Part shown: positions 10,080 through 44,499 of the stretch, one piece after another
Position numbering within the stretch: position 1 is the first letter of the stretch
Layout of the letters: each line of letters starts with the position of its first letter
Assembly (NCBI RefSeq): GCF_002105155.1
Contig: NW_019028987.1
Location: 364,501 to 428,500, forward strand
DNA from: Lobosporangium transversale
Lineage: Eukaryota; Mortierellomycota; Mortierellomycetes; Mortierellales; Mortierellaceae
Length of the DNA: 64,000 nt
Direction: 5' to 3'
Translations under genes and position numbers: made by a program
Notes under the pieces: model-generated
What the model saw: only the letters and a program-made list of their open reading frames with translations
Databases searched by the model: none
What the model was told of the DNA's origin: nothing

Positions 10080-10289
10080 GGGGCTGGAAGAATTTTTGAG
10101 TGTTTTGGCTTGGATCCCAAAAAGGAAGTGTTATATTTTTGTTTTAGAATAGCAATTTAATTCAATCAGCACTCATTTCACTTCGAAGCATGCTTGAAAA
10201 TTTTCGATTGAATTGAGCTACCTATTCTAAAAACTAAGCGATTTCCTTTTTGGATCCAAGCCAAAACACTCAAAAATTCTTCCAGCCCT
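10080..10289. repeat. MITE with ~47-bp terminal inverted repeats
   Basis: The left arm (10081-10127, starting gggctggaagaatttttgag) and right arm (about 10242-10288) are near-perfect inverted repeats around a ~115-bp AT-rich core; similarity extends weakly inward (ttagaata-type words). No coding capacity. The element lies 65 bp from the 3' side of the tRNA-Ile gene. A target-site duplication could not be fixed. Confidence 0.7.
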
Positions 10290-10353: not shown

Positions 10354-10426
10354 TGCTCATTGCAGGGATCGAACCTGCGACCTTCGCGTTATTAGCACGA
10401 CGCTCTACCGACTAAGCTAAACGAGC
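10354..10426 (-). tRNA. tRNA-Ile, anticodon AAT (AAU)
   Basis: 73 nt, no intron. Full cloverleaf on the minus strand: acceptor GCTCGTT/AATGAGC (one G-T pair), D-arm GCTT/GAGC, anticodon stem TCGTG/CGCGA with loop CTAATAA (anticodon AAT), T-stem GCAGG/CCTGC with loop TTCGATC. The A box (TAGCTTAGTCGG) and B box (GGTTCGATCCC) are both intact and a T6 terminator follows, so the gene looks functional. Its 5' half plus 14 bp of upstream sequence is repeated twice more (18033-18071 and 25203-25241) as target-site duplications of LINE insertions. Only this copy has the B box, so only this copy should be transcribed. Confidence 0.95.
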
Positions 10427-10440
10427 CTCCGATGGAGGTT
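10402..10440. repeat. 39-bp target-site duplication, copy A (inside intact tRNA-Ile gene)
   Basis: 25 bp of the tRNA gene (mature 5' end to just past the D-arm, A box included) plus 14 bp upstream. Identical to 18033-18071 and 25203-25241. LINE-1 begins at the next base. Confidence 0.93.
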
Positions 10441-11006
10441 TTTATTTCTGGAGCCGGGTCGTTCCTACGATTCGCGCCGGTATTCTCCCACGTGACTTTC
10501 TACTCTAGTTCATATTCTATACTACGAAAAAAAGCGCCATGGGCATGAGCTGAAAAATGACTATCGTGGAAATATTGTGGAAGGCCACCGACCGAACCTA
10601 ATGCAGTACCGCCGAGTGGATCCATGAAAGAAAGGGTATAGGGAATAGTGTACAAGGGGGAGAGGTGAAAATAAAATAATAAAAATAATAAAAATAATAA
10701 AATAATAAAAAATAAAAATAAAAATAAAAAATAAAAAATAAAAAATAAAAATATAAAAAGGCGAAGCAAATAAGGAAAAGGGAGAAGACCAAGACGCCAC
10801 CAAAAGGGAGAAAAGGGAAAAAGGAAAGAAAGAAAAAAAGATCAACTTGAAAATGACATCTTCCTCCGCTCATCACCATCATTTTCGCCATGTCCTCATT
10901 TCCTCCTCGTCTCTTCTCATCTCATCTCCATCTCCATCTCCATCTCCATGTTCCTTATTTTCCTGAAATCTTTTTATAGGCAATGTTTGCCAAGCCTGCG
11001 CCTGGA

Positions 11007-11112
11007 CCAATCAGAATGATGCATGAGCACACCATCTGATCAGCTGGAAGAATGAGTCAGAGACGAGCCTGGGAATGGCGATGGCAGCATGAGACGGAAA
11101 AACACATAAATT
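11007..11112 (+). promoter_or_regulatory. Promoter of the antisense gene ORFa inside the LINE 3' region
   Basis: A CCAAT box (11007-11011, in gaccaatcag) and a TATA-like acataaatt (11104-11112) precede the ORFa ATG at 11228 by usual pol II distances. The same gaccaatcag/accaatcag block is kept in the copy at 24.6 kb and in the diverged copy near 43.79 kb. The assignment is by position and motif only. Confidence 0.5.
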
Positions 11113-11227
11113 GCAGCTCCATCTCTGCTCCATTCCTCATTCCTCAACTCATTGCAACCTTTGCCTTTTCGCTTCAAGTTTCCTGTCTGCACCTTCCTCC
11201 ACCTCCACCACAACTATAACAACAACC

Positions 11228-11902
11228 ATGTCTGCCTCTCTTCGTCGTAGTGTTAGCTTCGGAGGTGCCTCCGTCAAGTGTAGGGAGCCTTCTCCTGAGT
11301 CAGTTAGCTCTGACACGACCAGTGCCGGTGCGGAGTCTTCCCTGCCTGTTGTTGGGTCTTTTGCTTCCTCGTCTTCTGGTGCTGCCACCAGACACTCCTC
11401 GCCTGCTCTATCGCAGGTGAAGAGTGAAGAGACTTTGCCTCTGTGGCATACGGATTCATCCAACCTCTCTGCGATTGAGATCCCTGATGAGATCTCCTCT
11501 GTCGGTGCTGATGAGACCTTTATTTTGCTGTCCCCGAGTCCTCAGGTGCCCGCAAGTCAACGTTTCTTTCCTCCCGCTGCCTCGTCGGATAGGGGTAACC
11601 CACCCCTGTCCCGCAAGCGATCCTCGGAGTCGCTTGAAGAGTCTGTTGACTCAGATGAGGAAGACAAGCTCCATTCCGTACTGGTGTCGGAGCTTGCGGA
11701 CCTCTACCGGTACACGTCGAGGGCCCGTCGGATCCTCCATTACAGGGAGGTCTCCGAGGAAAGTAGGAATTACTACCTTGGGCTTCTCTCTAGGTATGAG
11801 AAGTCCGAGGATGCGATCCATCAGACTCTGCGGCAACTTGAGTCTGATATCAAATTCCGGGAGTTCTGTCGGACAGCGCGTAAAGTGTGTCGCCGTAGCT
11901 AG
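11228..11902 (+). CDS. ORFa: antisense-oriented protein gene carried in the LINE 3' region, function unknown
   Basis: 224 residues, in accATGt context. The N-terminal two thirds are rich in Ser, Pro, Glu and Thr and start MSASLRRSVSFGG. The C-terminal ~70 residues look helical and basic (YEKSEDAIHQTLRQLES, FREFCRTARKVCRRS). No known domain recognised. An AATAAA at 11923-11928 and an A-run at 11946-11962 follow the stop, as in a pol II gene. It converges on LINE ORF2 with 116 bp between stops. A truncated copy is at 24873 and a diverged open copy at 44001; the latter keeps SVSFGG, the NPPLS motif and the FREFCR.ARK.CR C-terminus despite many changes elsewhere. This suggests that the protein is made and useful to the element; a regulatory or RNA-binding role is only a guess. 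Confidence 0.7.
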   Translation: MSASLRRSVSFGGASVKCREPSPESVSSDTTSAGAESSLPVVGSFASSSSGAATRHSSPALSQVKSEETLPLWHTDSSNLSAIEIPDEISSVGADETFILLSPSPQVPASQRFFPPAASSDRGNPPLSRKRSSESLEESVDSDEEDKLHSVLVSELADLYRYTSRARRILHYREVSEESRNYYLGLLSRYEKSEDAIHQTLRQLESDIKFREFCRTARKVCRRS

Positions 11903-12018
11903 TACATTTGCACTGAGACAGAAATAAAGAAAAAAATTAAACAGCAAAAAAAAAAAAAAAAAAGATCTGAAACCTTAAAAAAATGAACTGAAAAAAAATT
12001 CACACGCTTGTCCTCTTT

Positions 12019-15000
12019 TTAAAAAAGAGAGGGTGTGAATTCTCTGTTTGCAACTTCTTCCTGACCAACTTCTCTTTCTTCTTCCATCACCTCGTCCTCC
12101 ATCTCTGCTCCTTCTATCGCTGGTCTGTTCATCGCTGCTACTGTCGCAATATTCATTATCCCTCCAAAGATTAGCTCCTCTCCTTCCACTCGGATGTGTG
12201 GTGGATAGTTCCATTCCTGCAGAAACTTTTGAACATTGTTGTCATCATTGTCCTCATCCTCACTGTCGTCGTCAGCAACCTCTCCACTCTTCTGTCGCTC
12301 TCGCTCGACCTGATCCTTATAGTGCGCTCTTTCCCACTCCAGTTTGATGCGGTATCGCAGCGCTGCTATGGCTTTAGCCTTGAGGACGCCTTCTGGCACT
12401 GTTTCCTTGTCTCCCAACTTGCAGTAAGTCTTGAAAATCACTTGCGTGACAGTTGCATGTATGTGAATGACAACTGCAGGCAGCGACTTGACCTCGGGCC
12501 AGCATAGTTGGTCTTGTGCAGCATTATCACGAAGATCTAGCTCAGGCACTAATTCCTTTATCCATCCTCGACATGCGTTCCACAACTCTAGCACTTCTGG
12601 ACAGTCATGAAAGGCATGCCCTCGAGACTCAAAGGCTGCTGGTGCTCCATCTGTTCCACATCGTCGACAATCTGGAGAGACCGGGGTGTTGTACTTGTAC
12701 TTGCTCTTGATTCCATTCGTCTGGTAGACATGGTGTGCAACCAGGTACAGGTGGTGTCGCTCATTTGTATATCTGTGTTTGCTGTGCAACCGATCAGAGA
12801 AAAAGCGATCCCACTGTTTGTCAGGAATAGGAGTGTGCTGGATATTCGGCCATGGTTTGCGGTCCATGAACCTGATGTGCTTGTAGATTGGCGGGCGAAG
12901 GTAAATGCTACGAGAGACAGGCTTAGCTATCCAAGCTTTCAGCGCATTGCATTCAATATACTTACGAGCCTTCTTGACCGTGAATAGAGCCATGGGGACA
13001 TCTTTGCCAAAGACTGTCGTCAGTCCTCGAGCTTGAGCAAGTGCAGGAGGCACACGATCAGCAGGAGTGACCTTTCTTTTGACGTCCAGCTGTGCAAAAG
13101 CCTTGACAGCCTCAAAGACCGAGGTTCTTGCGCGTTGGATTTCAGTTCTATGGCGGATGTCAGTCGAGGCAAGAGGAGGAGCTTCCAAAAATTGTTCTGT
13201 CTGTTGGACAGAGGTCTTTCTGTAGTACGATTGGGCCATGTCTGTGAATATAGGCTTCCATCGTGCATCCTGTAGCTGCCATCGAGCCATCCATTTAGCC
13301 ATGAGTGCCTGGCACTGGGTCCTAGGGTCAATTAGGTTCCAGCCTCCCTTGTTCTTGGGTCGGCGATACCATGCCAGCGAGACTCGAGAAACTTGATCAT
13401 TCCACAAAATCTTCTTTGTCAACCTGTCAATCGACTTGAAGAAGTTTGGAGAAAAGGAGTAGAAAGGAGCAACGTGCCAAAGCTTGGAAAGAAAGTAAGT
13501 GTTGGCAACCGTCACTCGTCCTTGAAAGGAGAGACGTCGAAAGCGCCAGGTGCTAACCGTCGTCTGCATTGTTTGTAGGAGAGCTCGCTCAATGACTGGC
13601 AGGTCGCGACCTTTAGCTTGGATAACCACGCCGAGATGAACAAAAGGTTCATTAAAGGGACGAGCAATGAAGCCATTAAGGTGGATCACCATCGTAGCAT
13701 TCGCCGTGAACGGGATCAGAGCCGTCTTTTGTCTGTTCACCTTGGCACCAGACGCATACTCATGCAGCTCGATAGCACGCAACACATGCTGTTCGTCTCC
13801 TGGAGCAACACCAAGCGTCGTATCATCAGCAAAAGCAGCCACTTTAAAAGGAATACCAACAGTAGGAATGCCCGTCGCGTGATGCTCATAGTACAGAAGA
13901 AAAGGTTCCAAGACAAAGTTGAACAGGAGCGGAGCCAGAGGATCACCTTGACGCAAGCCTCTGCGTGCCTGATACGGATTCGATTGGTTTCTGTTCATGA
14001 CAATGGTGGCAGAGAGATCAGAGTAGCAGCTTCGCACCCAGGAACGAATGCGAGGGCCAAAGCCAAAGGCCTCTAGGACTCGATGCATATATGACCACTC
14101 GACACGATCGTACGCTTTTTCTTGATCAAGGGAGAGAATAGCAGCATCTCCTTTATCTCCAGACTGAAGAGAGAGAGCCACTAGTTCTAGCAACCTGACA
14201 TTGTCATGACCTTGTCGTCCTGGAATAAAGCCAGTTTGCCATTCACCTATAACCTGTTTAGCTGCAGGATTGATGCGATTAGTCAGAGCCTTGGTGAAGA
14301 TCTTGTAATCACATTGAGTCAGAGAGATGGGACGATAGTTTTGCATCAGTTCATTGTCACCCTTCTTGAAGATCAACGTTGTCAAGGCTTTCCGGTGAGA
14401 GACTGGGAGGTCACCACCTTCGACATCAACACTGTTAACGACTTCGAGCAATATAGGAGCCAATTCTCTCTTGAAGGTCTTGTAGAATTCGTAAGGAAGA
14501 CCATCGGAACCAGGCGAGGATCTATCAGCCATCGAGTCTATAGAGGCTTCAATCTCCTGAAGAGAGATATCAGCATCAAGACTAGTGGTGAGAGCGGGAG
14601 GAATCCTGTCGGTGATTTCAGCCAACAAGAGATCCTGGGCGGCCTCGTCAGTGTGTCCAGAGGTGTATAGCTTCTCGTAGAAGGAGCGTGCTATTTCCTC
14701 CATTCCTTGTTGCAGAGTTGTGCGGTTGCCGGAACTGTCCTTGAGCGACAAGATAGAGCGCTTTGCATAGCCTTTCTTGAGCTTTTTGGTAAATTGCGGC
14801 GAGGCTCGTTCACCTTCTTCAATCCATTCGATCTTGGACAGAGTGATGTCTCGTTCCATGCGATACGCTTCATGTTTCCGTAGTTGCTCCCTCGCTTCGA
14901 AAAGATTGCTTATGGCGTCAGGGTCGTTTGGCTGGTTATCAAGGGCAAGATCAGCCTCTTTCAGAGTCTTTTGGAGGTCGATTCTTACCCTAGTGTCATT

Positions 15001-16074
15001 GAAGCGCTTCTTTTTGCGATATCGTAGTCCTGCAAACAAGCACTTTTTCTTACAGTCATCCCAAAACTCTCCAGCGGACTGAAAAAGAGTAGGATGAGAG
15101 GCGCGTTTCCTCAGACAGCGAGATATAAGGGAGCGGATCTCGGTTTGGAAAGCAGGGTCGCGTAAGATTCGAGTGTCAAGGATGAGGACTGGCTTTGTGA
15201 TCACTGCCGGATTCCGTGCTGCTGCTGCTGTTGGCTCATCATCATCGTCGTTACCAGTAGGCAGGGCAGGCATGGGTCGAGGCGGAGGGTTTGGACGTTT
15301 GGAGGTGTTTATCACAACTTCAACGATCCTGTGATCAGTCTTGATAATCGGCATAGTAGAGACCTTGTAACTAGAAACAGTGGGCAAGAGAGCATGAGAG
15401 ACCATAATATAGTCAATCCTTGTCATGGTGCACCATCTAAGTCTCGAAACATGAGTGAAGTGGGTCTCGACAATATCTCCAGCGGGATCTCTAGAAGGAG
15501 GAGGGGCAACATCGATCACACCTAGTCTTGTAAAGAGTGGACCAAGGCGAGGCCAGCGGGTGGCTCTAACATCGTTGGTGGGAGGGTTGCGGTCTAGTGT
15601 AGTGCTGGTGACAGAGTTGAAGTCACCAAGGGCAACGAGAGGGTAGTCATCTTGCGTAAGGAGTTCATCAGGAAATTCTTCAATAAACTCTGAAAGGGAG
15701 ACATCCGAAACATATGAACTCGGGACATAAATGTTGATCATGCGAAGACGTTCATCCATGTTGTCATCGACATACAGATCGATCGCTAAAATACGTCCAT
15801 TGAGAAAGTCTTGTTTTAGAGTGTAGAAGAGACGAGGGTTGTTGATGAGGATCGCACAATGCTTTGTAAACACTGCTTTTCCTGCACCCCATTCTCTTGT
15901 CCACTGATTATTTTTGACTGTTGTCCATTGCGGATGCTGGGTATCTGTTTCCTGCAAAGCAATGACATCGTATGGCTGAGTCTTGAGCCATTGGAAGAGC
16001 GTCCTTCGTTTTTCTTGGTTGAAAATTGAACAGACGTTGAGTGTGCATACTTTTAGATTTTCAAAATCAATCAT
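12019..16074 (-). CDS. LINE ORF2: AP endonuclease / reverse transcriptase / zinc finger
   Basis: 1351 residues, uninterrupted. The N-terminal ~260 residues form an exonuclease-endonuclease-phosphatase domain: ALQET, VALGDFNSV, TRIDYIMVS and KTDHRIVEV correspond to the metal-binding and catalytic positions of AP-type endonucleases. The central reverse transcriptase shows LSLDQEKAYDRVEW, RRGLRQGDPLAPLLF and the catalytic AFADD box. The C-terminal part carries a CRRC...H....C zinc-finger-like cluster (CRRCGTDGAP ... GHAFHDC). The enzyme would nick the target and copy the element by target-primed reverse transcription. The insertion site, first nick 14 bp upstream of tRNA-Ile, implies site specificity, probably set by the endonuclease or C-terminal region. 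The last ~60 residues are acidic and then variable. Confidence 0.93.
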   Translation of the reverse strand: MIDFENLKVCTLNVCSIFNQEKRRTLFQWLKTQPYDVIALQETDTQHPQWTTVKNNQWTREWGAGKAVFTKHCAILINNPRLFYTLKQDFLNGRILAIDLYVDDNMDERLRMINIYVPSSYVSDVSLSEFIEEFPDELLTQDDYPLVALGDFNSVTSTTLDRNPPTNDVRATRWPRLGPLFTRLGVIDVAPPPSRDPAGDIVETHFTHVSRLRWCTMTRIDYIMVSHALLPTVSSYKVSTMPIIKTDHRIVEVVINTSKRPNPPPRPMPALPTGNDDDDEPTAAAARNPAVITKPVLILDTRILRDPAFQTEIRSLISRCLRKRASHPTLFQSAGEFWDDCKKKCLFAGLRYRKKKRFNDTRVRIDLQKTLKEADLALDNQPNDPDAISNLFEAREQLRKHEAYRMERDITLSKIEWIEEGERASPQFTKKLKKGYAKRSILSLKDSSGNRTTLQQGMEEIARSFYEKLYTSGHTDEAAQDLLLAEITDRIPPALTTSLDADISLQEIEASIDSMADRSSPGSDGLPYEFYKTFKRELAPILLEVVNSVDVEGGDLPVSHRKALTTLIFKKGDNELMQNYRPISLTQCDYKIFTKALTNRINPAAKQVIGEWQTGFIPGRQGHDNVRLLELVALSLQSGDKGDAAILSLDQEKAYDRVEWSYMHRVLEAFGFGPRIRSWVRSCYSDLSATIVMNRNQSNPYQARRGLRQGDPLAPLLFNFVLEPFLLYYEHHATGIPTVGIPFKVAAFADDTTLGVAPGDEQHVLRAIELHEYASGAKVNRQKTALIPFTANATMVIHLNGFIARPFNEPFVHLGVVIQAKGRDLPVIERALLQTMQTTVSTWRFRRLSFQGRVTVANTYFLSKLWHVAPFYSFSPNFFKSIDRLTKKILWNDQVSRVSLAWYRRPKNKGGWNLIDPRTQCQALMAKWMARWQLQDARWKPIFTDMAQSYYRKTSVQQTEQFLEAPPLASTDIRHRTEIQRARTSVFEAVKAFAQLDVKRKVTPADRVPPALAQARGLTTVFGKDVPMALFTVKKARKYIECNALKAWIAKPVSRSIYLRPPIYKHIRFMDRKPWPNIQHTPIPDKQWDRFFSDRLHSKHRYTNERHHLYLVAHHVYQTNGIKSKYKYNTPVSPDCRRCGTDGAPAAFESRGHAFHDCPEVLELWNACRGWIKELVPELDLRDNAAQDQLCWPEVKSLPAVVIHIHATVTQVIFKTYCKLGDKETVPEGVLKAKAIAALRYRIKLEWERAHYKDQVERERQKSGEVADDDSEDEDNDDNNVQKFLQEWNYPPHIRVEGEELIFGGIMNIATVAAMNRPAIEGAEMEDEVMEEEREVGQEEVANREFTPSLF

Positions 16075-16206
16075 TGATTAAAAAAATAGTGAAAGCATAC
16101 GGTTCTTGTGAGGGGAGCAAGGCACGCAAAGGGAGTTTGAGTCTTTTTTTTTTTTTTTTTTTTTTTTTTAAGACTGAGTGACTTCCTGGCCCGCTCCCCA
16201 GGGCAA

Positions 16207-17883
16207 TTATCTAGCATCGTTGTTCTTTGCAGTAGGTGTTCTCGAAGGTCGCGAGGCCTTCGAGACGGTGAGAGGGTCAACGAAGGTCCGCTTCAGCCTT
16301 GACGAGACCGCTGATACTGCTTTGCCAGAGACTTGGCGAGGCTTGGTTGGCGTCAGTACTGTTTCTGATCCTTCTTCTTGCATGGTATCCATCTCAGAGT
16401 CCTCAACAATGGGGATAGCCGAGGGGACAGGGAGGGGAGGAGCAGGGGAGGAGGAGGAGGAGGAGGAGGAGGAGTCAAGATGTTCTTCTATGGTCTTTTC
16501 GGTAGTCAAGTCCATTTCTTCGTCTCTAACAATGGCATCAGTTGAGGAGACGGAAAGAGGCTCCGGCAGCGGCGCCGTCTCAGCTGCACTAGGTGCCTCT
16601 GGAGACTGATCCACAGACGCATGTGTATCTGCAGGACCTGAGGTGACATCTTGTGTTGAGGAAGAAGGAGAAGCGGCAGCATCAGCTACCTTGATCTCTT
16701 CTATCAAAACAGTTGGCTCCTGTTGTGTGGGACCGGAAGATACGGGGGCGGGGGCAGAGGTGCTCTCCTTGGTGTTGAGTTTGCGAGCGGTAATCTTCTT
16801 CCTTGGGACATCACTTTCCGATGCCGAAGTTGAGCCTGTGCTCCGCGAAGAAGTCCTCTTTGCTGCCTTTTTCCTCTTGGTGGAGGTGACAGTTGTCCAT
16901 TCCTCCTTGTCGGAGGATGGGGTGTCCTTATTGACCTTGGGACCCTTGGTAGCCTTGGGACCCTTGGTAGCCTTGGGAGCTTGAGGGACCGCAGGAGGGG
17001 CCCTTGCGGGCGCGTTCGCAGGCAAGAACGCGCGAGCCATAATGACTCTTTTAGGGGCCGAGAGGAGATCGAACTCGGGTGGTTGGGGGCAGGACTGCTT
17101 GACGTGGTTCTCCTCACCACACTTGTAGCAGTACTGGGGCCCATACCAGTGGAAAAGCGTGTTAATACCCTCAGCTTGGGCCACGCGGGGGATAAGGAGG
17201 TCTCGAGGGGAGTCCCCAGAGAGCTCTAACACAAATTCGAAGGAAGGGAGCAAAAGAGTCTCCGATCCCTTGACGTAATGGAACTTGGTGTGGATTACAC
17301 GGCCAAATTTACCAAAGATATTTTTGATATACTCCAGACGATCCTCCGGAGTAGAGAGGGTGATTCGGTCAACCCGAATCCTGAGTCGGCTTCCTGTGGA
17401 ATGGACCGTATGGTATGCTCTGACAGGAGCAGGATTGCAGGGGAGAGGAGGAGACGCAATGGCCTCGTCCACCTCTTTTTGTGTCCTCACGAGAACCACT
17501 ACGACCCCTGGGACAACAGGGTCAAGACCAACTGCCTTGGGGAAAGCCAGGCGAATGGCCTCCACCACGTCAGAGACGAGGTGAGTCTTCCTGTCATACT
17601 TGACAGCGAAGGTGGTGGGAGCGTGGTGTGGGGTGAAAAACACAGAGTGCTCCTCAACCTCTGTGCTGAACGCACGGACAACTGCGTTCTTACGAAGTGC
17701 ATTCCAACTGGTCTGCACTTCTTTCTTGGATAAGCTTTTGCGGGCCATCTCCGCAAAGCTCAGGGACTGCTTAATTTTATTGTTTTTTACTACATCCCCT
17801 GCCTGAGCCAGGGGATCGTGTCCCTCATCTACCTCATTCGAGGAAGACGGAGGGGGAGATGGCGGTGGAAGTCGATCCGCCAT
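16207..17883 (-). CDS. LINE ORF1: gag-like nucleic-acid-binding protein with CCHC knuckle
   Basis: 558 residues from the ATG at 17883 (MADRLPPPSPPP); a further in-frame upstream ATG at 17985 lies in the 5' UTR and is less likely. One CCHC zinc knuckle CYKCGEENHVKQSC sits near the middle, preceded by an RRM/esterase-like alpha-beta segment (RIRVDRITL, YIKNIFGKFGRVI) and followed by a Lys/Pro (KATKGPK repeats) and Ser/Glu-rich tail. This organisation is usual for ORF1p that coats LINE RNA. A 132-nt gap containing a long A-run (sense strand) separates it from ORF2. A diverged fragment of the N-terminal part lies at 44500-44706. Confidence 0.88.
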   Translation of the reverse strand: MADRLPPPSPPPSSSNEVDEGHDPLAQAGDVVKNNKIKQSLSFAEMARKSLSKKEVQTSWNALRKNAVVRAFSTEVEEHSVFFTPHHAPTTFAVKYDRKTHLVSDVVEAIRLAFPKAVGLDPVVPGVVVVLVRTQKEVDEAIASPPLPCNPAPVRAYHTVHSTGSRLRIRVDRITLSTPEDRLEYIKNIFGKFGRVIHTKFHYVKGSETLLLPSFEFVLELSGDSPRDLLIPRVAQAEGINTLFHWYGPQYCYKCGEENHVKQSCPQPPEFDLLSAPKRVIMARAFLPANAPARAPPAVPQAPKATKGPKATKGPKVNKDTPSSDKEEWTTVTSTKRKKAAKRTSSRSTGSTSASESDVPRKKITARKLNTKESTSAPAPVSSGPTQQEPTVLIEEIKVADAAASPSSSTQDVTSGPADTHASVDQSPEAPSAAETAPLPEPLSVSSTDAIVRDEEMDLTTEKTIEEHLDSSSSSSSSSPAPPLPVPSAIPIVEDSEMDTMQEEGSETVLTPTKPRQVSGKAVSAVSSRLKRTFVDPLTVSKASRPSRTPTAKNNDAR

Positions 17884-18032
17884 TAGATGAAGGGGAAGGG
17901 GGAGATAAAAGTAAGAGAATAGGCCTATCCGTTGGACTGACCGTTGCGAATTGGCTGAGTAAATTAAGTATTTCTTTATTTGCAAAAGGCAACCACAATT
18001 TTATTAAAAAATTTATGGTAGGAAGGAAAGGT

Positions 18033-18071
18033 GCTCTACCGACTAAGCTAAACGAGCCTCCGATGGAGGTT
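18033..18071. repeat. 39-bp target-site duplication, copy B
   Basis: Identical to 10402-10440. It carries the first 25 bases of tRNA-Ile (A box only) plus 14 bp upstream. It lies between the 5' end of LINE-1 and the 3' LTR of the Ty3 element. Confidence 0.93.
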
Positions 18072-18457
18072 TGAAAAAATCACTGTCTTAAGAACCGGGG
18101 GGTTATACTGAGATGCCCTTAAAAACCGCAACGAGACGCAAATACATAGAACACACTGAAGTGTTGTACCAAGATAAAGGTCTTTATTAGTTTATGATAC
18201 ATATAATACTATACAAGTAACTAGTGCTGAGATGAATGAGGTTGCATACCTGAAGTGTTGTACCAAGATAAAGGTAAGGAACACTTCAGGGACGGAGAGT
18301 CCACTATTTATTATAGCGGGGAGGATCGGGTGGCTGAGCTCACGTCCAGGCAGGACGGGGTGGGTTTGAGGGTACCACTATAGGTATACCTCTGGTCCTA
18401 CCTACCATGACGTCACTTGTTATAGGACTTGAGCTTAAGTTGCCTCGATTTAGGACA
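18072..18457 (-). repeat. 3' LTR of Ty3 element
   Basis: 386 bp. The last ~115 bp of the gag-pol frame (to the stop at 18340) run into this LTR. Internally it repeats a ~24-bp word (gaagtgttgtaccaagataa...) twice. Confidence 0.92.
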
Positions 18458-21400
18458 GACTCCCCACGAGAAATCCAAGCCGCCCCTGCGGCGTCAATCT
18501 TTGGATTGGGCCTTGAGAGGGAACGTGGTGGTCGCGCAGGAGGGGGCGATGCGGTAGCTGCGGGCCTTGCTGATGATGATGGGGCCGTTGTACGCGATGA
18601 ACCTTCGAGGGGTATGGGTTGCACTGCTGTACCTACTTCTGGCTCCGACTGAGGCCCTCGCTCGTCTTCTTCTTGAATGGTCTCCATGGGGATGGTGAGT
18701 TCATCGCGACTGTTGCGGGTTTTATACCATGCGCGCGTCGGTTCTGGACTACCCGCGGGTAGATTCACTGGCTTCAGACGGTCTTTATGCACAAGGTCCA
18801 TTTTCGCTTTTCCATCGGGCCAGATAAGCTTGTAGGCGCCAAAAGGGGTAATCGTCTCGACACGCAATGGTCCATACCAAGGGTATTCAAATTTCCTTTT
18901 CGCTATGTTTTTTACTAAAACCCAGTCGCCAATCTCGTACACTTGCCTCGGAGCTTCGGGGTCGATGTCATGTCTCTCATTATACCTTTCCTCCATGAGC
19001 CTTGCGGCTTCCTGTTGCCGCTCCTCGTTTGATAGCCTCTCAAGTCTCAATCTTTCAAGCTCGGCCTCTCTCGCGGCTTGAACCTCTGTAAAAACCGCTC
19101 CATCGAATACATAAGGACGAGTGAGGTCGCCAGGTATCGTGGGCTCGATTCCATAGACTAGGTAGAATGGTGACTTCTTAGATACGCTATGTATTCTGGT
19201 GCGGCAGGCGAAAAGTGCCTGATCTAGAAAGAGGTCCCACTTGTGCTTCATCTTATCACCGACGTATTTTGTTAATGCGGCGCCGAGGATGCCATTGGTG
19301 CGTTCGGTTTTGCCATTTGTGCGCGGGTGATACGCGGAGGTGAGCCGGTGTTTAACTTTCATCTTCTTAAGATATTCTCGCAGGACCTCTGACATGAACT
19401 GACTGCCTCTATCGGAAATCAGCTCTGCGGGGCAACCAAAGTTCATGACAATTTCCTCATAAATGAAATTTGAGACTGTCTCGGCAGTGGCGTCAGGCGT
19501 AGCTTTGGCTATTGTCCAGCTAGTAGCGTAATCTACAGCGACTATTATCCACATGTTTCCATTCTTAGTCTTGGGACAGCGTCCGATGAAATCGATACCC
19601 CAGCGTTGGAAGGGTTTAGCCACCGAGAAAGTGTGGAGAGGTTCGGTGACCGTTGCTCCTCCGCGAGTCAGCTGGCATTCCTTGCAAGTACGGCATGCTT
19701 CTTGAATGCTCTCACGCATACGAGGCCACCAATATCTAGGCTGGATGCGTTCAAATAAGCCTTGCGCACCGGGGTGTCCCATACTTTCATGCATTTTGGC
19801 CATGTAATCTGCGCGCCGAGCGAAATTTAAAAATTCTACTTGCGTATCACCCATCACTCTAAACACTTTCCCGTCTTCCACCACAAAATTATCCTCTTCC
19901 TCCCTCATTAAACCTAGGAAGTCCTGGTGTGCGGGGTCAGCGAGGGTGCCCGTTTCCTTATACTCGACCATTAATAGAGGCCAATCCATATCTTCCAATG
20001 TCTCGTCAAACTCTGTCTCTTCCATGGCCATCAATAATGCCTCCTCGAACGCCTCAACACCTGCGTCGTGGTTACTCTCTTTTATTCCGAGCTCCCCGTT
20101 GGCGAGTTCCATGAAGTTGCAGGTGACGTCCTTGGTATTCTCCTCATTAGGCCTAGAAAGAGCATCGGCAACAGGGTTATCCTTGCCCGGACGATAGATG
20201 ATAACATGATCTTGTTGCTCCATGTGTTGGCTCCATCCCGCCATGCGTCTGCTCATGCCTTTTTGTCGTTTTAAGAACACCAAACTGTGATTGTCGGTCA
20301 AGATGTTGACTGTTCTGCCCTGGATATAAGTACGCCATTCGTCGCAAGCGCGCACAATTGCATACAATTCGCGCTCATGTGTTGGCCATTTCTGCTGACC
20401 CTCATCTAATTTCCTCGACATGAAAGCGATAGGGTGCATTTCCTTCAGGCCATTTGAACCAAAGTCCTGACTCAGGACGGCGCCAATGGCAGTGAGGGAC
20501 GCATCAGTCTCGATGAAAAAGGGGCGAGAAAAATCGGCAAGGCGTAGAACGGGAGCTGAGGCGAGGGCTTGCTTGAGGTCGTCGAAGGCAGCTTGTTCTC
20601 TCTCGCCCCACGGCGAGGGGAGAGGTCTGGTCTTGATTTTGTTGTTGTCTTTTTCTTTTGTGAGATCTGTGAGGGGAGCGGCCCGAGAGGCATAATTTTT
20701 AATAAATTTGCGGTAGTAGCCAGCCATACCTAAAAATCGACGAACCTCTTGAACATTGGTGGGCGCCGTCAATGATTGGATGCTTTCTGTCTTTGAGGGG
20801 TCGACTTTCAAGCCTTCACCGCTCACAACGTGGCCTAAGAAGAGGAGTTCAGGCTTGCCGAATTCGCATTTGGACATCTTGACCTTGAGTTGATATTTCG
20901 CCAGACGTTCAAGTACCCAACGCAAATGTTCCTTATGGTCCTCAGGGTTGCGACTGAATACTAGGATATCATCCATGAAGACTAAACAAAATTTATCTAG
21001 ACCGCCTTGCAGAACTTCATTCATCATCCCCTGGAAGGACGCAGGTGCGTTAGTCAAACCAAAAGGCATCACCAAATATTCAAAGTGACCATAGCGGGTA
21101 CCAAAAGCGGTCTTTTCCACGTCGCTGGGGTTAACTCGAATCTGATTGAAGCCTGATTGCAAATCGAGTTTAGAAAACTCGGTTGCACCTGAGAGTCGGT
21201 CGAAGAATTCATCAATGAGTGGCAGAGGGTACTTATTCTTGACGGTAATTGCATTGAGCGCGCGGTAGTCTACACACAGACGGAGGCTTCCGTCTTTCTT
21301 CCTAGCGAATACAACGGGCGCTGACCAAGGGGAAATACTGGGCCGAATGAAGCCTTTCTTCTGCAGCTCTTCTAATTGCTCCTTTAATGCATCCAGTTCC

Positions 21401-23559
21401 TCAGGCGACATCCTCCGCACCGGCATGGCGATAGGGAGGGCCGAGCCAGTCTCGATGCGATGATCAACGTGACGGTGTGGGGGAAGTTTGTTCAAGTCGG
21501 CGAAGACGGAGTCTGCGAATTCCTCTATCAGCGCGCGGTATCTCTCTGGGACCTTTTCTGCTCCCTCACCGGCGGCGTCAACGGAATTGACCACTAACTC
21601 TACTTCGTCCCCACTGATAAAGCAAACTCCATAATCCTCTGTAGTATTCAGGATCTTCTTGAAATGCTTCACTCCGACGAGGTGAACGTCTGTACGGTTC
21701 TTGGCCTCATGTTCTGCAGATGTTGAGATCAGATGATCTTTTTCTTTTTCTGTAGATTCCCCATTTTTTGTCTCCTCATTTGCTTTCACCATTTCTACTT
21801 GCTCCATTCCATCGCTCTTCACATTTCCCATTGTTGCTTCCTCGCCCTCTCTTACTGTCGTATTCCACAATTCGTCTGTGCCTGCCACTGTCTCTGCGAC
21901 ATTTTTTATGACGTCTCCTTCCATTGTCCTTTCTGCAGTTTCCTTAACGCTCTTATTGTCGCTCGCCCCGGTAGATTCAATATTTGAAGCCAGCTGGCCA
22001 TTATTTTCCTCCCTTACGCTGCGTATCGCCTGCCAACCTTTTCGACCTTGCCATTTGTATATTCCAGTACGCCAATTTACCTGCGGGTTCCACTTTCGCA
22101 GCCAGGGTTGCCCTAGGATGATATCGTATCTCAAATTATCAACGACGACTCCCGTTTCTCTCATTACCTCGTCGCCCATACTGAGAGCAAGAGTAGCCGT
22201 GGTTGACGAGACAGAGCTTTGGCCACGGGCCATCAGGATCCTGACTGGTTTAGGTAAGGGTAGTAAACGGTAGTCTTCCTTCTTGAGATCCCTTATGAAT
22301 TCAGAGCAGACGAAGTTACCGGAAGCACCGGAGTCGATCAGCACGCGTGCCCCTAAGGTTCCGACCTTTGCGCGTACTTCGTGCACCGGCCGGTTCAACT
22401 CTTTATAATTTTCTGGGGTATTGCCATTCTTTAGGTGATAGGACTGTAAAATATACGATGAAGAATTGCGACCTTTATTGCCAGGGCAGTACTCTATTCT
22501 ATGTCCAGGGATCCCACAGCCGTAGCATCGCGGCTTACTTCTATCTGGACAGTTTGCCTTGATATGGCCGTTCTTGCCGCAGTGGAAGCACTTTCGACCC
22601 TCACTATGCTGGCGAGTCTGCATGGCCGCAACCTCAAGCTCTTCCTCCGTGAAACGCTGCCGGACATGGTCCAAATCCATGGACATGTCTGGCGCACTTG
22701 GCACACTGGACCTGGGGACGCCGGCATTAGTACTAGCGAGGGACTGCGACCTAAACCCAAGGTTACGACTGCCATGGACTGGGTTTCCCCCCGCATGGCC
22801 ACTGGTGAGGGATCTGAAGGCCGACAGGTCTTGATCCTTCAAGGCAATCTTGTGAGTGAAGGTCTCGAGCGAATCCTCAGGCCTCATGATATCAACAAGT
22901 TTGTTTCGGATATATTGTGGGAGTTTTCTGGCTAACTCCAACTTCTTGTCCATTGTAGACTTGTCATGGATTTTGTTGGCTAACGCTACGTATCTGCTCA
23001 TGAAGCTGATTAGGGCCTCGTCTTTCTCCATCTTTAGCCCGTCTAACTGGGCCCTCAGGTTCTGTGAAAGATGGGTCTGCGTCCATCTCTTAACGAAGTC
23101 TTCCTTGAACGCATCCCAACCGATGTCTTCGCCCTTGTCATCGATATATTGGAGGGCCCACGACAGAGCACCTCCCTTGAGGATGGTGACAAAACTGGGA
23201 ACTTTCTTGTTGTCCGGCCACGTCTGACTCCGGAACTGCAGCTCGATGAACTTGAGCCAAGCATCAAGGTCGAAGGCGACTTCGTGCCCCGAGAAAGTAG
23301 AGGTCTGAGCGGCAAACTGCGGGGCTGGCCTGTGAGGGTCCAGCCATCGGCTTACTGCCGGGGGCGCTGGTGCTGAGGCCAATTGATTATTGGCGAACTC
23401 GAGCTGCCTAGTGAGCTCCTCGACTCTTCGCGCGAGCTCCTCACTCGAGGCCTGCTGCAACTGTTGCTGACGCTGTGCAAATATCTCTGCTGCATCCATT
23501 TCTGCCGTGGTATAACTTGATTCCGATTCTGTATCACTTGGTGGGCTAAAAACCACCAT
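18340..23559 (-). CDS. Ty3 Gag-Pol polyprotein, single frame
   Basis: 1739 residues. Order of parts: capsid-like N-terminal third with a coiled coil (ELARRVEELTRQLEF); two CCHC knuckles (CFHCGKNGHIKANC, CYGCGIPGHRIEYC); aspartic protease (VLIDSGASGNFV); reverse transcriptase with FMDD in place of the commoner YxDD; RNase H (ETDASLTAIGAVL, TDNHSLVFL); integrase with HHCC (GHPGAQGLF ... CRTCKEC) and D,D,E core (GIDFIG, LISDRGSQF, NGKTERTNG). The C-terminus after the integrase is a Pro/Ser-rich tail with no chromodomain. Gag and Pol are fused with no frameshift or stop. Lack of a chromodomain fits a targeting mode other than heterochromatin, consistent with its position at a Pol III gene. Confidence 0.93.
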   Translation of the reverse strand: MVVFSPPSDTESESSYTTAEMDAAEIFAQRQQQLQQASSEELARRVEELTRQLEFANNQLASAPAPPAVSRWLDPHRPAPQFAAQTSTFSGHEVAFDLDAWLKFIELQFRSQTWPDNKKVPSFVTILKGGALSWALQYIDDKGEDIGWDAFKEDFVKRWTQTHLSQNLRAQLDGLKMEKDEALISFMSRYVALANKIHDKSTMDKKLELARKLPQYIRNKLVDIMRPEDSLETFTHKIALKDQDLSAFRSLTSGHAGGNPVHGSRNLGFRSQSLASTNAGVPRSSVPSAPDMSMDLDHVRQRFTEEELEVAAMQTRQHSEGRKCFHCGKNGHIKANCPDRSKPRCYGCGIPGHRIEYCPGNKGRNSSSYILQSYHLKNGNTPENYKELNRPVHEVRAKVGTLGARVLIDSGASGNFVCSEFIRDLKKEDYRLLPLPKPVRILMARGQSSVSSTTATLALSMGDEVMRETGVVVDNLRYDIILGQPWLRKWNPQVNWRTGIYKWQGRKGWQAIRSVREENNGQLASNIESTGASDNKSVKETAERTMEGDVIKNVAETVAGTDELWNTTVREGEEATMGNVKSDGMEQVEMVKANEETKNGESTEKEKDHLISTSAEHEAKNRTDVHLVGVKHFKKILNTTEDYGVCFISGDEVELVVNSVDAAGEGAEKVPERYRALIEEFADSVFADLNKLPPHRHVDHRIETGSALPIAMPVRRMSPEELDALKEQLEELQKKGFIRPSISPWSAPVVFARKKDGSLRLCVDYRALNAITVKNKYPLPLIDEFFDRLSGATEFSKLDLQSGFNQIRVNPSDVEKTAFGTRYGHFEYLVMPFGLTNAPASFQGMMNEVLQGGLDKFCLVFMDDILVFSRNPEDHKEHLRWVLERLAKYQLKVKMSKCEFGKPELLFLGHVVSGEGLKVDPSKTESIQSLTAPTNVQEVRRFLGMAGYYRKFIKNYASRAAPLTDLTKEKDNNKIKTRPLPSPWGEREQAAFDDLKQALASAPVLRLADFSRPFFIETDASLTAIGAVLSQDFGSNGLKEMHPIAFMSRKLDEGQQKWPTHERELYAIVRACDEWRTYIQGRTVNILTDNHSLVFLKRQKGMSRRMAGWSQHMEQQDHVIIYRPGKDNPVADALSRPNEENTKDVTCNFMELANGELGIKESNHDAGVEAFEEALLMAMEETEFDETLEDMDWPLLMVEYKETGTLADPAHQDFLGLMREEEDNFVVEDGKVFRVMGDTQVEFLNFARRADYMAKMHESMGHPGAQGLFERIQPRYWWPRMRESIQEACRTCKECQLTRGGATVTEPLHTFSVAKPFQRWGIDFIGRCPKTKNGNMWIIVAVDYATSWTIAKATPDATAETVSNFIYEEIVMNFGCPAELISDRGSQFMSEVLREYLKKMKVKHRLTSAYHPRTNGKTERTNGILGAALTKYVGDKMKHKWDLFLDQALFACRTRIHSVSKKSPFYLVYGIEPTIPGDLTRPYVFDGAVFTEVQAAREAELERLRLERLSNEERQQEAARLMEERYNERHDIDPEAPRQVYEIGDWVLVKNIAKRKFEYPWYGPLRVETITPFGAYKLIWPDGKAKMDLVHKDRLKPVNLPAGSPEPTRAWYKTRNSRDELTIPMETIQEEDERGPQSEPEVGTAVQPIPLEGSSRTTAPSSSARPAATASPPPARPPRSLSRPNPKIDAAGAAWISRGESVLNRGNLSSSPITSDVMVGRTRGIPIVVPSNPPRPAWT

Positions 23560-23690
23560 AAACTATTTGTAAACTGTGTAACCGAATTACGGACAAATAA
23601 CTGTGGACAAATAAAACTGTTGACAAATAAAAACTGTGCGACCAAAAAAAAACTGTGGACTGATCGTTGATTATTGGGCTCGTTAAGACC

Positions 23691-23708
23691 GTGGTGCCTT
23701 TGCTACCA
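23691..23708 (-). promoter_or_regulatory. Primer-binding site of Ty3 element
   Basis: TGGTAGCAAAGGCACC read on the minus strand, one base inside the 5' LTR. The unrelated Ty3 copy at 28327 has a very similar site (TGGTAGCAAAGC) directly after its LTR. Confidence 0.7.
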
Positions 23709-23709
23709 T

Positions 23710-24095
23710 TGAAAAAATCACTGTCTTAAGAACCGGGGGGTTATACTGAGATGCCCTTAAAAACCGCAACGAGACGCAAATACATAGAACACACTGAAGT
23801 GTTGTACCAAGATAAAGGTCTTTATTAGTTTATGATACATATAATACTATACAAGTAACTAGTGCTGAGATGAATGAGGTTGCATACCTGAAGTGTTGTA
23901 CCAAGATAAAGGTAAGGAACACTTCAGGGACGGAGAGTCCACTATTTATTATAGCGGGGAGGATCGGGTGGCTGAGCTCACGTCCAGGCAGGACGGGGTG
24001 GGTTTGAGGGTACCACTATAGGTATACCTCTGGTCCTACCTACCATGACGTCACTTGTTATAGGACGTGAGCTTAAGTTGCCTCGATTTAGGACA
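23710..24095 (-). repeat. 5' LTR of Ty3 element
   Basis: 386 bp, matching 18072-18457 at all but one position by eye. Confidence 0.92.
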
Positions 24096-24099
24096 GGTT

Positions 24100-25202
24100 T
24101 TTATTTCTGGAGCCGGGTCGTTCCTACGATTCACGCCGGTATTCTTCCACGTGACTTTCTACTCTAGTTCATATTCTATACTACGGAAAAAAAAGCGCCA
24201 TGGGCATGAGCTGAAAAATGACTATCGTTGAAATATTGTGGAAGGCCACCGACCGAACCTAATGCAGTACCGCCGAGTGGATCCATGAAAGAAAGGGTAT
24301 AGGGAATAGTGTACAAGGGGGAGAGGTGAAAATAAAATAATAAAAGTAATAAAAATAATAAAATAATAAAAAATAAAAATAAAAATATAAAATATAAAAA
24401 TATAAAAAGGCGAAGCAAATAAGGAAAGGAGAAAGGCCAGAGACGCCACCAAAAGGGAGAAAAGGGAAAAAGGAAAGAAAAGAAGATCAACTTGAAAATG
24501 ACATCTTCCTCCGCTCATCACCATCATTTCCGCCATGTCCTCATTTCCTCCTCGTCTCTTCTCATCTCATCTCCATCTCCATCTCCATCTCCATGTTCCT
24601 TATTTTCCTGAAATCTTTTTATAGGCAATGTTTGCCAAGCCTGCGCCTGGACCAATCAGAATGATGCATGAGCACACCATCTGATCAGCTGGAAGAATGA
24701 GTCAGAGGCGAGCCTGTGAATGGCGATGGCAGCATGAGACGGAAAAACACATAAATTGCAGCTCCATCTCTGCTCCATTCCTCATTCCTCAACTCATTGC
24801 AACCTTTGCCTTTTCGCTTCAAGTTTCCTGTCTGCACCTTCCTCCACCTCCACCACAACTATAACAACAACCATGTCTGCCTCTCTTCGTCGTAGTGTTA
24901 GCTTCGGAGGTGCCTCCGTCAAGTGTAGGGAGCCTTCTCCTGAGTCAGTTAGCTCTGACACGACCAGTGCCGGTGCGGAGTCTTCCCTGCCTGTTGTTGG
25001 GTCTTTTGCTTCCTCGTCTTCTGGTGCTGCCACCAGACACTCCTCGCCTGCTCTATCGCAGGTGAAGAGTGAAGAGACTTTGCCTCTGTGGCATACGGAT
25101 TCATCCAACCTCTCTGCGATTGAGATCCCTGATGAGATCTCCTCTGTCGGTGCTGATGAGACCTTTATTTTGCTGTCCCCGAGTCCTCAGGTGCCCGCAA
25201 GT
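24100..25202 (-). mobile_element. 5'-truncated LINE copy (LINE-2) at the same tRNA site
   Basis: Nearly identical to LINE-1 bases 10441-11556: the last 1.1 kb of the LINE on its sense strand, i.e. only the 3' region with ORFa. Its 3' end (ggtttttatttctgg on +) is at the same tRNA-derived junction, and its truncated 5' end abuts 39-bp copy C at 25203. 5' truncation is the usual product of target-primed reverse transcription and shows that ORFa is part of the genuine 3' end of the LINE. Small indels in the A-rich tract separate the two copies. Confidence 0.92.
24873..25202 (+). pseudogene. Truncated ORFa copy in LINE-2
   Basis: Same protein as ORFa for the first ~110 residues (to SPSPQVPAS), then the frame runs into the tRNA-derived 39-bp repeat and stops. 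The conserved C-terminal part is missing. Confidence 0.85.
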
Positions 25203-25241
25203 GCTCTACCGACTAAGCTAAACGAGCCTCCGATGGAGGTT
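25203..25241. repeat. 39-bp target-site duplication, copy C
   Basis: Third identical copy of the tRNA-Ile 5' half plus upstream 14 bp. It marks the 5' side of LINE-2 and borders the original tRNA upstream flank. Confidence 0.93.
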
Positions 25242-25242
25242 T

Positions 25243-25596
25243 TGTCCTAAATCGAGGCAACTTAAGCTCACGTCCTATAACAAGTGACGTCATGGTAGGT
25301 AGGACCAGAGGTATACCTATAGTGGTACCCTCAAACCCACCCCGTCCTGCCTGGACGTGAGCTCAGCCACCCGATCCTCCCCGCTATAATAAATAGTGGA
25401 CTCTCCGTCCCTGAAGTGTTCCTTACCTTTATCTTGGTACAACACTTCAGGTATGCAACCTCATTCATCTCAGCACTAGTTACTTGTATAGTATTATATG
25501 TATCATAAACTAATAAAGACCTTTATCTTGGTACAACACTTCAGTGTGTTCTATGTATTTGCGTCTCGTTGCGGTTTTTAAGGGCATCTCAGTATA
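25243..25596 (+). repeat. Solo LTR of the same Ty3 family, opposite orientation, truncated
   Basis: 354 of 386 bp of the LTR found at 18072/23710, inverted relative to that element and lacking its last 32 bp. It starts one base beyond 39-bp copy C, so it too sits ~15 bp upstream of the tRNA 5' end. It is cut at 25597 where another LTR begins. Confidence 0.88.
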
Positions 25597-26081: not shown

Positions 26082-27685
26082 CAGTGGTCATCAAAAGTCA
26101 TTCAATGATTTTGAATTTTTAACATTCTCATTCCTTTTCTTCATTCTCATCTAGCATGTGGCTAGTATATTTGGGGTAGTGCATTTGTTCCCCACACCTC
26201 ATGATTACTTTCATGTCTCATTCCTAATTATGACTTCATTGTGAAATAAAACCAATTTCAATTTGACCTGCCTATTGAATGACTTCTGCTGAATTTCAAT
26301 GTTGATTGCAAAAAAAACTTTTTCACTTCTCTTTTTTCTACCAAGATTACCTTCAGCTATATCTTCATACACCTCTACTTACAATTAACATTCCACATCG
26401 TTTAGTATTTATTATGAGGACGCTTTCTATGGAAAAGGTACAAAATGCTCAGGCCTTACTTCGACAAGGGAAGTCTACAAGCGAAGTGGCAAGGCAACTT
26501 GGTATCTCTATTTCATCGGCAATAAGGATCAGGAGGGACGTCAAGGACAATATTCCTAAACCCAGAATGGGCAGACCCTCATTGGTTTCCCCTGCTACCA
26601 AGAGGGTTATTGCACGCGAGGTTGATACGGGGAAACTTAGATCCATTCTGGCAGTTCAAGAATACATCAGATCGAGCCATGGAGTGCATGTCAGTGTAGA
26701 GACTGCCCGACGCTATGTAAAATCAGAGGGTTTGAAAAACTATGTCCGCCCATTCAAGCCTAGGCTGACAAAAATGCAGATTGCGAAAAGGAAGAATTTT
26801 GCCCTCAACCACCTTGACTGGACTGTTGATGACTGGAAGCGAGTGATGTTCTCGGACGAAAAGCTTTTTGAAAGGCTAGGGTCCTTAGGAGGAAGAACAC
26901 AATATAGGCGACCCGGCCACAGGACTTTAGAAGATCGAGATGTTAGAGAGAGATCAAGGGGAGCACATAATAAACTTATGTGGTGGGGCTGTATCACTTA
27001 TCATGGTGTAGGCGATGGTTGCAGGATCCCTGTCACAGTTGATTCCTCTTTATATGTTGATGTTCTACAAGATTATGTCCTCGGCTCATGGAAGTGGTAT
27101 GGCCAGGACCCTGAAAAGTTAATTTTTCAGCAGGACAATGCAAGTGTTCATACGAGTAGGATGGTTAAAGAGTTCTTAATTAAGTCACACATTACCACTT
27201 TGGAGTGGCCTCCAAATTCTCCTGACCTCAACCCTATCGAGAATGTATGGGCCTACATGGATCATCGGCTCAAGGGATATGAGAAGGTACCAAAGGATCC
27301 GGATGAACTATGGGAAAGACTACAGGATATCTGGACATCTATTCCACCTGACTTCCTTGATGAGCTATATGAAAGTATGCCACGAAGGGTAGAGGAGCTA
27401 CATCGCATGAAAGGATCTCGTACACATTGCTGAAGAACAGAAAAAAAAAACAAATAAAGCAAAGCTGCTGATTTTCTTCAAATGTCATTCAATGAGATGC
27501 CAATAATTGGCATTCATCTAAATTTTCAATTAGCAACAGGAGCTCATTGACATTGTAGTAGGAGTGACGTTGTCGATGGTCAAACTCGCTACGTAAGTTT
27601 CATTAGCGACAAGCAAGATCAAATTGGAGAAAGGAATGAGAATGTCGAAATTCCTAATTCATTGAATGACTTTTGATGACCACTG
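26082..27685 (+). mobile_element. Intact Tc1/mariner element (Tc1-C)
   Basis: 1604 bp with 27-bp perfect terminal inverted repeats (cagtggtcatcaaaagtcat...) and TA duplications at 26080-26081 and 27686-27687. The transposase frame is open. Everything needed for an autonomous element is present by inspection. Confidence 0.93.
26414..27433 (+). CDS. Tc1-type DD34E transposase
   Basis: 339 residues from the ATG at 26414. An N-terminal paired-type helix-turn-helix (ALLRQGKSTSEVARQLGIS) and GRP hinge (PRMGRPS) precede the catalytic core: first Asp in MFSDEKLF, second in FQQDNASVH, Glu in NPIENVW, with 34 residues between the last two. It cuts and pastes the element at TA. No stop or frameshift. 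Open frame and exact ends suggest possible current activity. Confidence 0.93.
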   Translation: MRTLSMEKVQNAQALLRQGKSTSEVARQLGISISSAIRIRRDVKDNIPKPRMGRPSLVSPATKRVIAREVDTGKLRSILAVQEYIRSSHGVHVSVETARRYVKSEGLKNYVRPFKPRLTKMQIAKRKNFALNHLDWTVDDWKRVMFSDEKLFERLGSLGGRTQYRRPGHRTLEDRDVRERSRGAHNKLMWWGCITYHGVGDGCRIPVTVDSSLYVDVLQDYVLGSWKWYGQDPEKLIFQQDNASVHTSRMVKEFLIKSHITTLEWPPNSPDLNPIENVWAYMDHRLKGYEKVPKDPDELWERLQDIWTSIPPDFLDELYESMPRRVEELHRMKGSRTHC

Positions 27686-44498: not shown

Positions 44499-44499
44499 T

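Follow-up and report, generated by a model that had tools for sequence, protein, structure and literature searches.

The window analysed here is a stretch of 64,000 nucleotides (nt) of the Lobosporangium transversale genome (42.7 Mb in 127 contigs, referred to by C numbers), and corresponds to C117:364501–428500. Among named proteins, the best hits to a host protein are from Modicella and Gamsiella (80%), which fits a Mortierellaceae fungus. The window hosts an intact transfer RNA (tRNA) gene together with a stack of long interspersed nuclear elements (LINEs), the subject of this work. The gene, called as tRNA-Ile(AAU) by ARAGORN and regarded by us as a rebuilt target, lies at 10354–10426 on the minus strand, as do all features below unless otherwise mentioned. 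An exact 39-mer composed of tRNA nt 1–25 (10402–10426 in the intact gene) and the 14 bp upstream starts at 10402 (copy A), 18033 (copy B), and 25203 (copy C), and is absent from the opposite strand. A 23-mer taken out of it found no additional match in the window at three mismatches and none in 100 shuffles; the exact copies and this test together rule out chance repeats as the source. Adjoining the gene is a 14-bp leader (10427–10440), probably brought by the LINE, with the hairpin CCTCC-ATC-GGAGG at 10426–10438 closing on tRNA nt 1. The next layer is LINE1, which sequence comparison defines as a full-length element of 7592 bp (10441–18032). Its 5′ flank is a tRNA-Ile 5′ half of nt 1–25 (copy B, 18033–18057) with a LINE-type leader next to it (18058–18071). 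A Ty3/gypsy-like long terminal repeat (LTR) element with GGTT at either side (18072–24095) then sits about 14 bp upstream of nt 1 of that half. Behind it is LINE2 (24100–25202), a 5′-truncated element with 97.1% identity to the 3′ 1117 bp of LINE1 (1120 aligned columns). LINE2 is flanked on its 5′ side by another tRNA half of nt 1–25 (copy C, 25203–25227) and its LINE-type leader (25228–25241), and is followed on the plus strand by an extra copy of the same LTR in inverse orientation (25243–25596, 354 bp matched). An earlier note on this DNA had reported the three 39-bp copies, their composition, and the common 3′ base of the two LINEs, all of which were reproduced by window search and alignment. 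Its layout of a full-length LINE between copies A and B and a truncated one between B and C was also correct, save that the roughly 6-kb Ty3-like element between copy B and LINE2 had been overlooked.

LINE1 contains two open reading frames (ORFs). ORF1 (16207–17883, 558 amino acids) has a weak CCHC zinc-knuckle match slightly under the Pfam cut-off, and ORF2 (12019–16074, 1351 amino acids) combines an APE-type endonuclease with a reverse transcriptase (RT). The sole Pfam matches in ORF2 are PF03372 and RVT_1 (PF00078), the APE-type domain covering residues 11–236. The Pfam scan of ORF2 gave no match to the RNase H domain PF00075, and none is listed for the metagenome proteins P0001–P0006. A profile built from ORF2 and six relatives matches LINE-1 ORF2p at positions 7–1144 of 1277 (E 7e-103). 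In an RT tree of 25 sequences, which has few named references and leaves out the metagenomic contig L055 described below, the two LINE families of this study and seven metagenome proteins form one clade with support 1.0. The clade is separate from the outgroup used, as an L1-group element should be from the RNase-H-bearing I/Jockey type, and two plant sequences fall outside it. By its ORF2 domains, the lack of an RNase H match, and the RT tree, the LINE is an L1-group non-LTR retrotransposon. An element of NeSL, R2, or CRE type would carry a restriction-like endonuclease, whereas ORF2 has an APE-type domain. Some copies look recent: LINE1 and the pieces at C44, C85, and C106 share 98.5–99.0% identity, and ORF2 is open in C117, C44, C85, and one C95 copy, while that of C106 is split. 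Synonymous and non-synonymous codon differences in ORF2 number 7 and 1 between C117 and C44, 6 and 1 between C117 and C85, and 3 and 0 between C44 and C85. In ORF1, C117 and C85 differ by three synonymous and four non-synonymous codons, and C44 and C85 by none.

To list the flanks of this first family genome-wide, we took the 3′-terminal 200 bases of the LINE as the query and scored all seven candidates. Six of them match with 98–100% identity (two on C117 and one each on C106, C95, C85, and C44) and adjoin the leader followed by the 5′ end of a tRNA; for the second C117 copy, this holds across the LTR element that separates LINE2 from copy B. The remaining match is to an old copy on C44 (86% over 1.5 kb) that is interrupted by an insert after LINE position 75. 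Past the insert, the LINE end resumes and, judged by eye, leads across a solo LTR bordered by CTAC at both ends to a decayed leader and tRNA half. This 3′ end, too, probably adjoined a tRNA. The site specificity proposed in the earlier note is thereby upheld, as none of the copies whose 3′ end is intact was found at a random site. Its target, tRNA-Ile(AAU), is correct as well, but not the sole one, as the first family has entered a tRNA-Lys once and a second family uses tRNA-Ala. Genome-wide, the leader joined to the start of the tRNA (CCTCCATCGGAGGCTCG) is found ten times as an exact match, seven times with two mismatches, and not once with a single mismatch (reversed control, 2). All ten exact places lie at LINE or tRNA junctions, the two-mismatch places being outside this inspection. 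Among the six full matches to tRNA-Ile(AAU) in the genome, five carry the LINE-type leader and one, on C87, a different leader. The 14-bp LINE-type leader is absent from the native leaders inspected.

On the other side of the element, seven of the nine 5′ junctions examined in the first family fall after tRNA nt 24–25 (two on C117, and those at C44, C85, C106, C41, and the C87 remnant). An insertion outside the tRNA gene, as made by TRE- and NLTR-type elements, was considered and dropped, the 5′ junctions being mostly intragenic. Some junctions contain additional bases, namely AGAGC (C41), CAGAGC (C44), TGGGTAGAGCAGAGC (C106), and AGAGCA (C11, second family). These look like tRNA nt 21–25 borne at the 5′ end of the RNA.

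The leaders on the two sides of a LINE need not agree. At C106, the tRNA half 5′ of the LINE has the leader AAGTCATAAAACGA, and the hairpin leader is found on the 3′ side. Likewise, C85, C35, and C119 each have a native leader on the 5′ side that is unlike the 3′-side leader. At C85, the LINE lies inside a tRNA-Lys(CUU) gene, with the native GCCCGGTTAGCTCAATCGGTAGAGC on its 5′ side. Its 3′ side begins with the Ile leader and Ile nt 1–6, passes through TTAGCT, which is shared by both tRNAs, and continues as tRNA-Lys from nt 13 on. The native start GCCCGGTTAGCT is present in all three other tRNA-Lys genes inspected (of seven other full-length matches), and ARAGORN still calls the fusion a tRNA-Lys. 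The fusion therefore indicates that the copied RNA probably contained leader and tRNA sequence of the Ile gene, and the crossover would place the first cut between tRNA nt 7 and 13. The duplicated segment at C85 measures 13–19 bp.

A second family shows the same arrangement in another gene. Its ORF2 relatives (30–49% identity per matched segment) were found on C35, C11, C119, and C75, and are inserted in tRNA-Ala(AGC) at the same nucleotide as the first family. At its 3′ end, the element has a hairpin unlike that of the first family, CCCAC-cacaacga-GTGGG, which closes on tRNA nt 3. A search with this 3′ end plus the tRNA gave 16 matches, six of them long LINE 3′ ends. Five of the six continue into the hairpin and tRNA-Ala, and one is broken in the hairpin by an LTR. 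The other ten comprise seven with the tRNA part only (two inspected), one short copy of leader and tRNA (C75), and two older or shorter LINE pieces. At C11, the units are in tandem, and two boundaries read hairpin, tRNA half, and next LINE start; at C35, there is an additional copy of about 42 bp consisting of only the leader and the tRNA half. C4 provides the unoccupied counterpart of the C119 insertion. The flanks, 258 bp on the upstream side and 1745 bp on the downstream side, the latter reaching the end of the sequence compared, are 100% identical, and they overlap by 27 bp, i.e., tRNA nt 1–25 plus two bases that possibly match by chance. This gives a duplication of 25–27 bp. The hairpin leader is absent from the empty C4 site, and hence it arrived with the LINE. 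Judged from this site and from the unequal leaders at C106, C85, C35, and C119, the 14-bp leader of the first family is likewise a hairpin travelling with the LINE. C4:14205–16180 is identical to C119 over the matched flanks save for the LINE, and the two sequences diverge farther upstream; they are either alleles or recent duplicates.

Aside from the fungal copies, a relative was found in L055 (NZ_JANXSO010000066.1), a 6660-bp LINE–tRNA contig from a prokaryote collection. It belongs to a metagenome-assembled genome labelled Iodobacter, of which it is apparently a eukaryotic contaminant. Its ORF1 has a CCHC-like motif by eye, and its ORF2 is 42% identical to the first family, 35% to the second, and 57% to P0005. 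The element ends in AAATAAAA with the hairpin CTAGGTAT-ACCA-ATACCTAG, which closes on nt 1 of a tRNA-Lys(CUU) that follows. Viral contigs contained no confirmed relative and no match to the pattern of a tRNA half joined to a LINE 5′ end. The first family, the second family, and L055 thus have three unrelated hairpin sequences at the same position, with the 3′ arm ending on tRNA nt 1–3. Their stems have 5, 5, and 8 Watson-Crick pairs, and the isolated hairpins give fold scores of z -2.80, -1.78, and -4.88, respectively. In random sequence, such a stem is found at 1.6–2.4% for 5 bp and 0.02–0.04% for 8 bp. At L037 and L039, ARAGORN starts the tRNA-Ala one base early, so the stem comes out at 4 bp by script and at 5 bp by folding. 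For a plant L1 lineage, compensatory changes have been reported in a 3′ stem-loop (PMC3747384). The hairpin can reasonably be supposed to act as a handle for the reverse transcriptase.

The insertion positions, the chimeric gene at C85, the empty site at C4, the stacked copies, and the hairpins are all read off the sequence, and they lead us to a mechanism that we consider highly probable. An L1-group LINE would open the A-box region of a tRNA gene and copy into it an RNA that ends with a hairpin and tRNA 5′ sequence, thereby rebuilding the gene. We infer the order of nicks, the annealing, the order of layers, and the expression of rebuilt genes along the following lines. The LINE RNA would extend beyond its 3′ region into the short hairpin and then into the tRNA 5′ part. 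The APE-type endonuclease would cut the A-box region of the target, on the bottom strand at nt 7–13, as bounded by the Ile/Lys crossover, and on the top strand usually after nt 24–25. Probably through base pairing, the tRNA-like RNA end would contact the nicked strand, and target-primed reverse transcription would then copy the RNA. This should give a product that reads native upstream sequence, native tRNA nt 1–25, LINE, hairpin leader, and tRNA nt 1–73. Its 3′ copy would be a whole tRNA gene whose leader and 5′ start are supplied by the LINE, with the A-box segment duplicated. The host tRNA would be kept and the site re-formed, and repeated rounds would yield head-to-tail stacks split by 25-nt tRNA halves, with the newest layer nearest the gene and older copies pushed outward. 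By this order LINE1 would be the newest layer in the window, and the leader next to copy C hints that another LINE had been inserted before LINE2. The idea of the earlier note that the host gene stays whole and available is thus retained.

The weight that we give to this mechanism comes mainly from C85 and the C4/C119 pair. The earlier note had taken the 39-mers as a single 39-bp target-site duplication; the LINE would then end at CCAGAAATAAAA, and the duplicated target would lie upstream of and inside tRNA-Ile. The three identical 39-mers of the window are in line with that, but it fails to explain the unlike leaders on the two sides at C106, C85, C35, and C119, the Ile–Lys fusion on the 3′ side of C85, and the C4 site without a hairpin leader, unless C4 lost its leader secondarily. 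We regard a 39-bp duplication as very unlikely. The window duplication would appear to be 39 bp because the native leader there had presumably been replaced by earlier insertions. A closer competitor lets the LINE end with the hairpin and takes the 25-nt tRNA half entirely as target-site duplication, the C85 fusion being a later gene conversion or error. A duplication of 25–27 bp does account for C4/C119 by itself. Conversion of the leader and nt 1–6 at C85, on the other hand, would need an exchange confined to 6 shared bp located precisely where the LINE joins the gene, where a read-through template would need one step, and we hold this alternative to be improbable. Spread of a ready-made tRNA–LINE unit by segmental duplication or recombination, which the earlier note had named as a possible refutation, would suit the near identity of the copies, and the 100% identical flanks of C4 and C119 do point to some duplication or allelism. 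These two loci differ precisely by the LINE, however, and 5′ leaders and truncation points vary among copies. At the other tRNA-Ile loci, nothing matches the 100 bp that follow the window tRNA on its 3′ side, which disfavours segmental duplication further, and as a general explanation it is the least credible of the three.

Several observations weigh against gene rebuilding by the LINE RNA. That nt 1–6 derive from the RNA is read from one fusion, that at C85, and the empty-site pair, taken alone, is compatible with a LINE ending at the hairpin plus a 25–27 bp duplication. Some copies do not follow the pattern: one C95 copy joins the tRNA at nt 12 on its 5′ side and is missing the 3′ 777 bp, and no tRNA half is present in the inspected 5′ stretch of the other. 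No tRNA-half motif was found around the 3′-less remnants at window 43605–44706 (3.3 kb), C117:906361 (4.0 kb), and, for the second family, C35:730 kb (2.0 kb). C87 has a native-looking leader on an intact tRNA-Ile with a LINE remnant 4.3 kb away. In the old C44 copy, the LINE end is rejoined past the interrupting insert only via a 34-bp match of 85%. ORF1 of C117 and C44 differs by three synonymous and four non-synonymous codons. L055 has lost its 5′ end at the contig edge and offers no 5′ junction, and its hairpin could be native to the tRNA. As to the hairpins, the 42-nt 3′ end of the first family folds no better than shuffles (z 0.05), and the hairpin of the second family is weak (z about -1.7). 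A stem of at least 5 bp also occurs in one of 22 control leaders. These controls are non-independent: two pairs are identical, and around half contain LTR sequence farther upstream. The hairpins had, moreover, already been seen when the stem test was devised.

If the RNA does end in tRNA sequence, a tentative extension is possible, which we judge somewhat less likely than not. The RNA may carry its 3′ tRNA piece as a swappable guide, such that pairing with the nicked gene selects the tRNA and each new insertion rewrites the guide. C85 could then be a switch in progress, and the clade could have moved among Ile, Ala, and Lys with the hairpin as the constant handle.

The LTR element interposed in the window is itself associated with tRNA genes. 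Its LTRs are about 386 bp, and Pfam identifies a Ty3_capsid domain. In 16 regions chosen from 48 genome matches, 12 of 18 LTRs of the same family lie 8–19 bp from a tRNA 5′ end and six do not; the tRNAs concerned are His, Tyr, Val, Lys, Phe, Leu, Met, and Gly. Insertions 14–15 bp upstream of tRNA nt 1 were found at C117 (two), C44, and C65. Such placement close upstream of tRNAs is characteristic of Ty3-like elements that insert at start sites, and Ty3 locates its sites through the RNA polymerase III (Pol III) machinery. If the LTR element targets in this way, the rebuilt tRNA genes beside which it lies would be Pol III-competent.

Some further features of these sequences were noted. The insert in the old C44 copy (~494426–495360) has inverted ends (83% over 70 bp) and breaks the LINE close to its 3′ end. 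An antisense frame of 224 amino acids is open within the LINE 3′ region (window 11228–11902, plus strand), with a TATA-like stretch upstream and AAATAAAG after the stop. Its counterpart in the old C44 copy, at 90.3% DNA identity, has neither gap nor stop, the non-synonymous rate (dN, 0.119) exceeding the synonymous rate (dS, 0.058). Zero stops are expected by chance in 30% of random placements, and coding is not proved. Both LINE families (window 18032; C11 units) share the pyrimidine-rich 5′ end ACCTTT(T)CCTTCC in spite of their distant ORF2 proteins; we take it to resemble a 5′ terminal oligopyrimidine start. Elsewhere in the window, 43605–44706 holds a decayed relic of this LINE lineage with internal deletion (pieces 68–79% identical), and a 60-nt imperfect inverted repeat (85%) lies directly downstream of the tRNA gene at 10081–10288. 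The plus-strand ORF at 26306–27433 looks, by its sequence, like a putative Tc1/mariner-type transposase.

LINEs specific for tRNA genes are already known. NeSL-1_TV (tRNA-Pro), LIN15_SM (tRNA-Arg), and LIN25_SM (tRNA-Glu) are non-LTR elements each reported to be specific for one tRNA gene (PMC4640811), and are in this respect like the LINEs studied here. They are treated there together with NeSL-related elements, which have a restriction-like endonuclease, whereas our LINEs are of APE type, and the accessible part of that source does not describe a carried hairpin or a gene-rebuilding tRNA part for NeSL-type elements. The Tx1 clade contains target-specific APE LINEs (PMC3706591, PMC4640811) and groups with L1 (PMC3747384). 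Sequence-specific insertion, by which Tx1 membership is judged, was also found for our LINEs. Its member Dewa, compared by description only, shares with them an APE-type endonuclease and a multicopy RNA-gene target, but is reported to lie in the tRNA-Leu spacer (PMC3706591) rather than inside the gene. The dictyostelid TRE5, TRE3, NLTR-A, and NLTR-B are L1-type LINEs targeting tRNA genes (PMC5911963, PMC5006619). They insert outside the gene, from 2–6 bp upstream (NLTR-A) to 40–150 bp downstream (TRE3), in contrast to the intragenic insertion seen here. For R2Ol in zebrafish, annealing of a read-through RNA end to the target raises insertion (PMC6530143), and target sequence at the RNA 3′ end is what we propose for these LINEs too. 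The open-access literature searched (titles and abstract starts, among the matches listed) yielded no LINE bearing part of a tRNA with which it restores the gene, nor any such elements in Mortierella-type fungi; it is this anatomy of a carried leader and a rebuilt gene that was not met there.

With such an anatomy, a small target set (six full tRNA-Ile(AAU) matches) could serve a LINE indefinitely, and a layered record of insertions would be left at a single gene. The guide idea points to a way, open to testing, in which a LINE may change its target, and the natural 3′ end, a hairpin followed by target sequence, may be of interest for targeted insertion. The known tRNA-aimed elements, as far as their sources describe them, insert either inside the gene without described repair or outside it, while this LINE inserts inside and would supply the leader and the 5′ start. 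R2 interrupts the 28S gene, whereas the sequence carried by these LINEs would restore the tRNA gene. Bacterial integrative elements at tRNA genes carry a part of the tRNA that restores the gene after insertion; they use an integrase, usually at the tRNA 3′ end, and are reversible. Gene rebuilding is thus alike in the two systems and the enzymes are unrelated, and the LINEs described here would be a eukaryotic, reverse-transcription counterpart of these bacterial elements.

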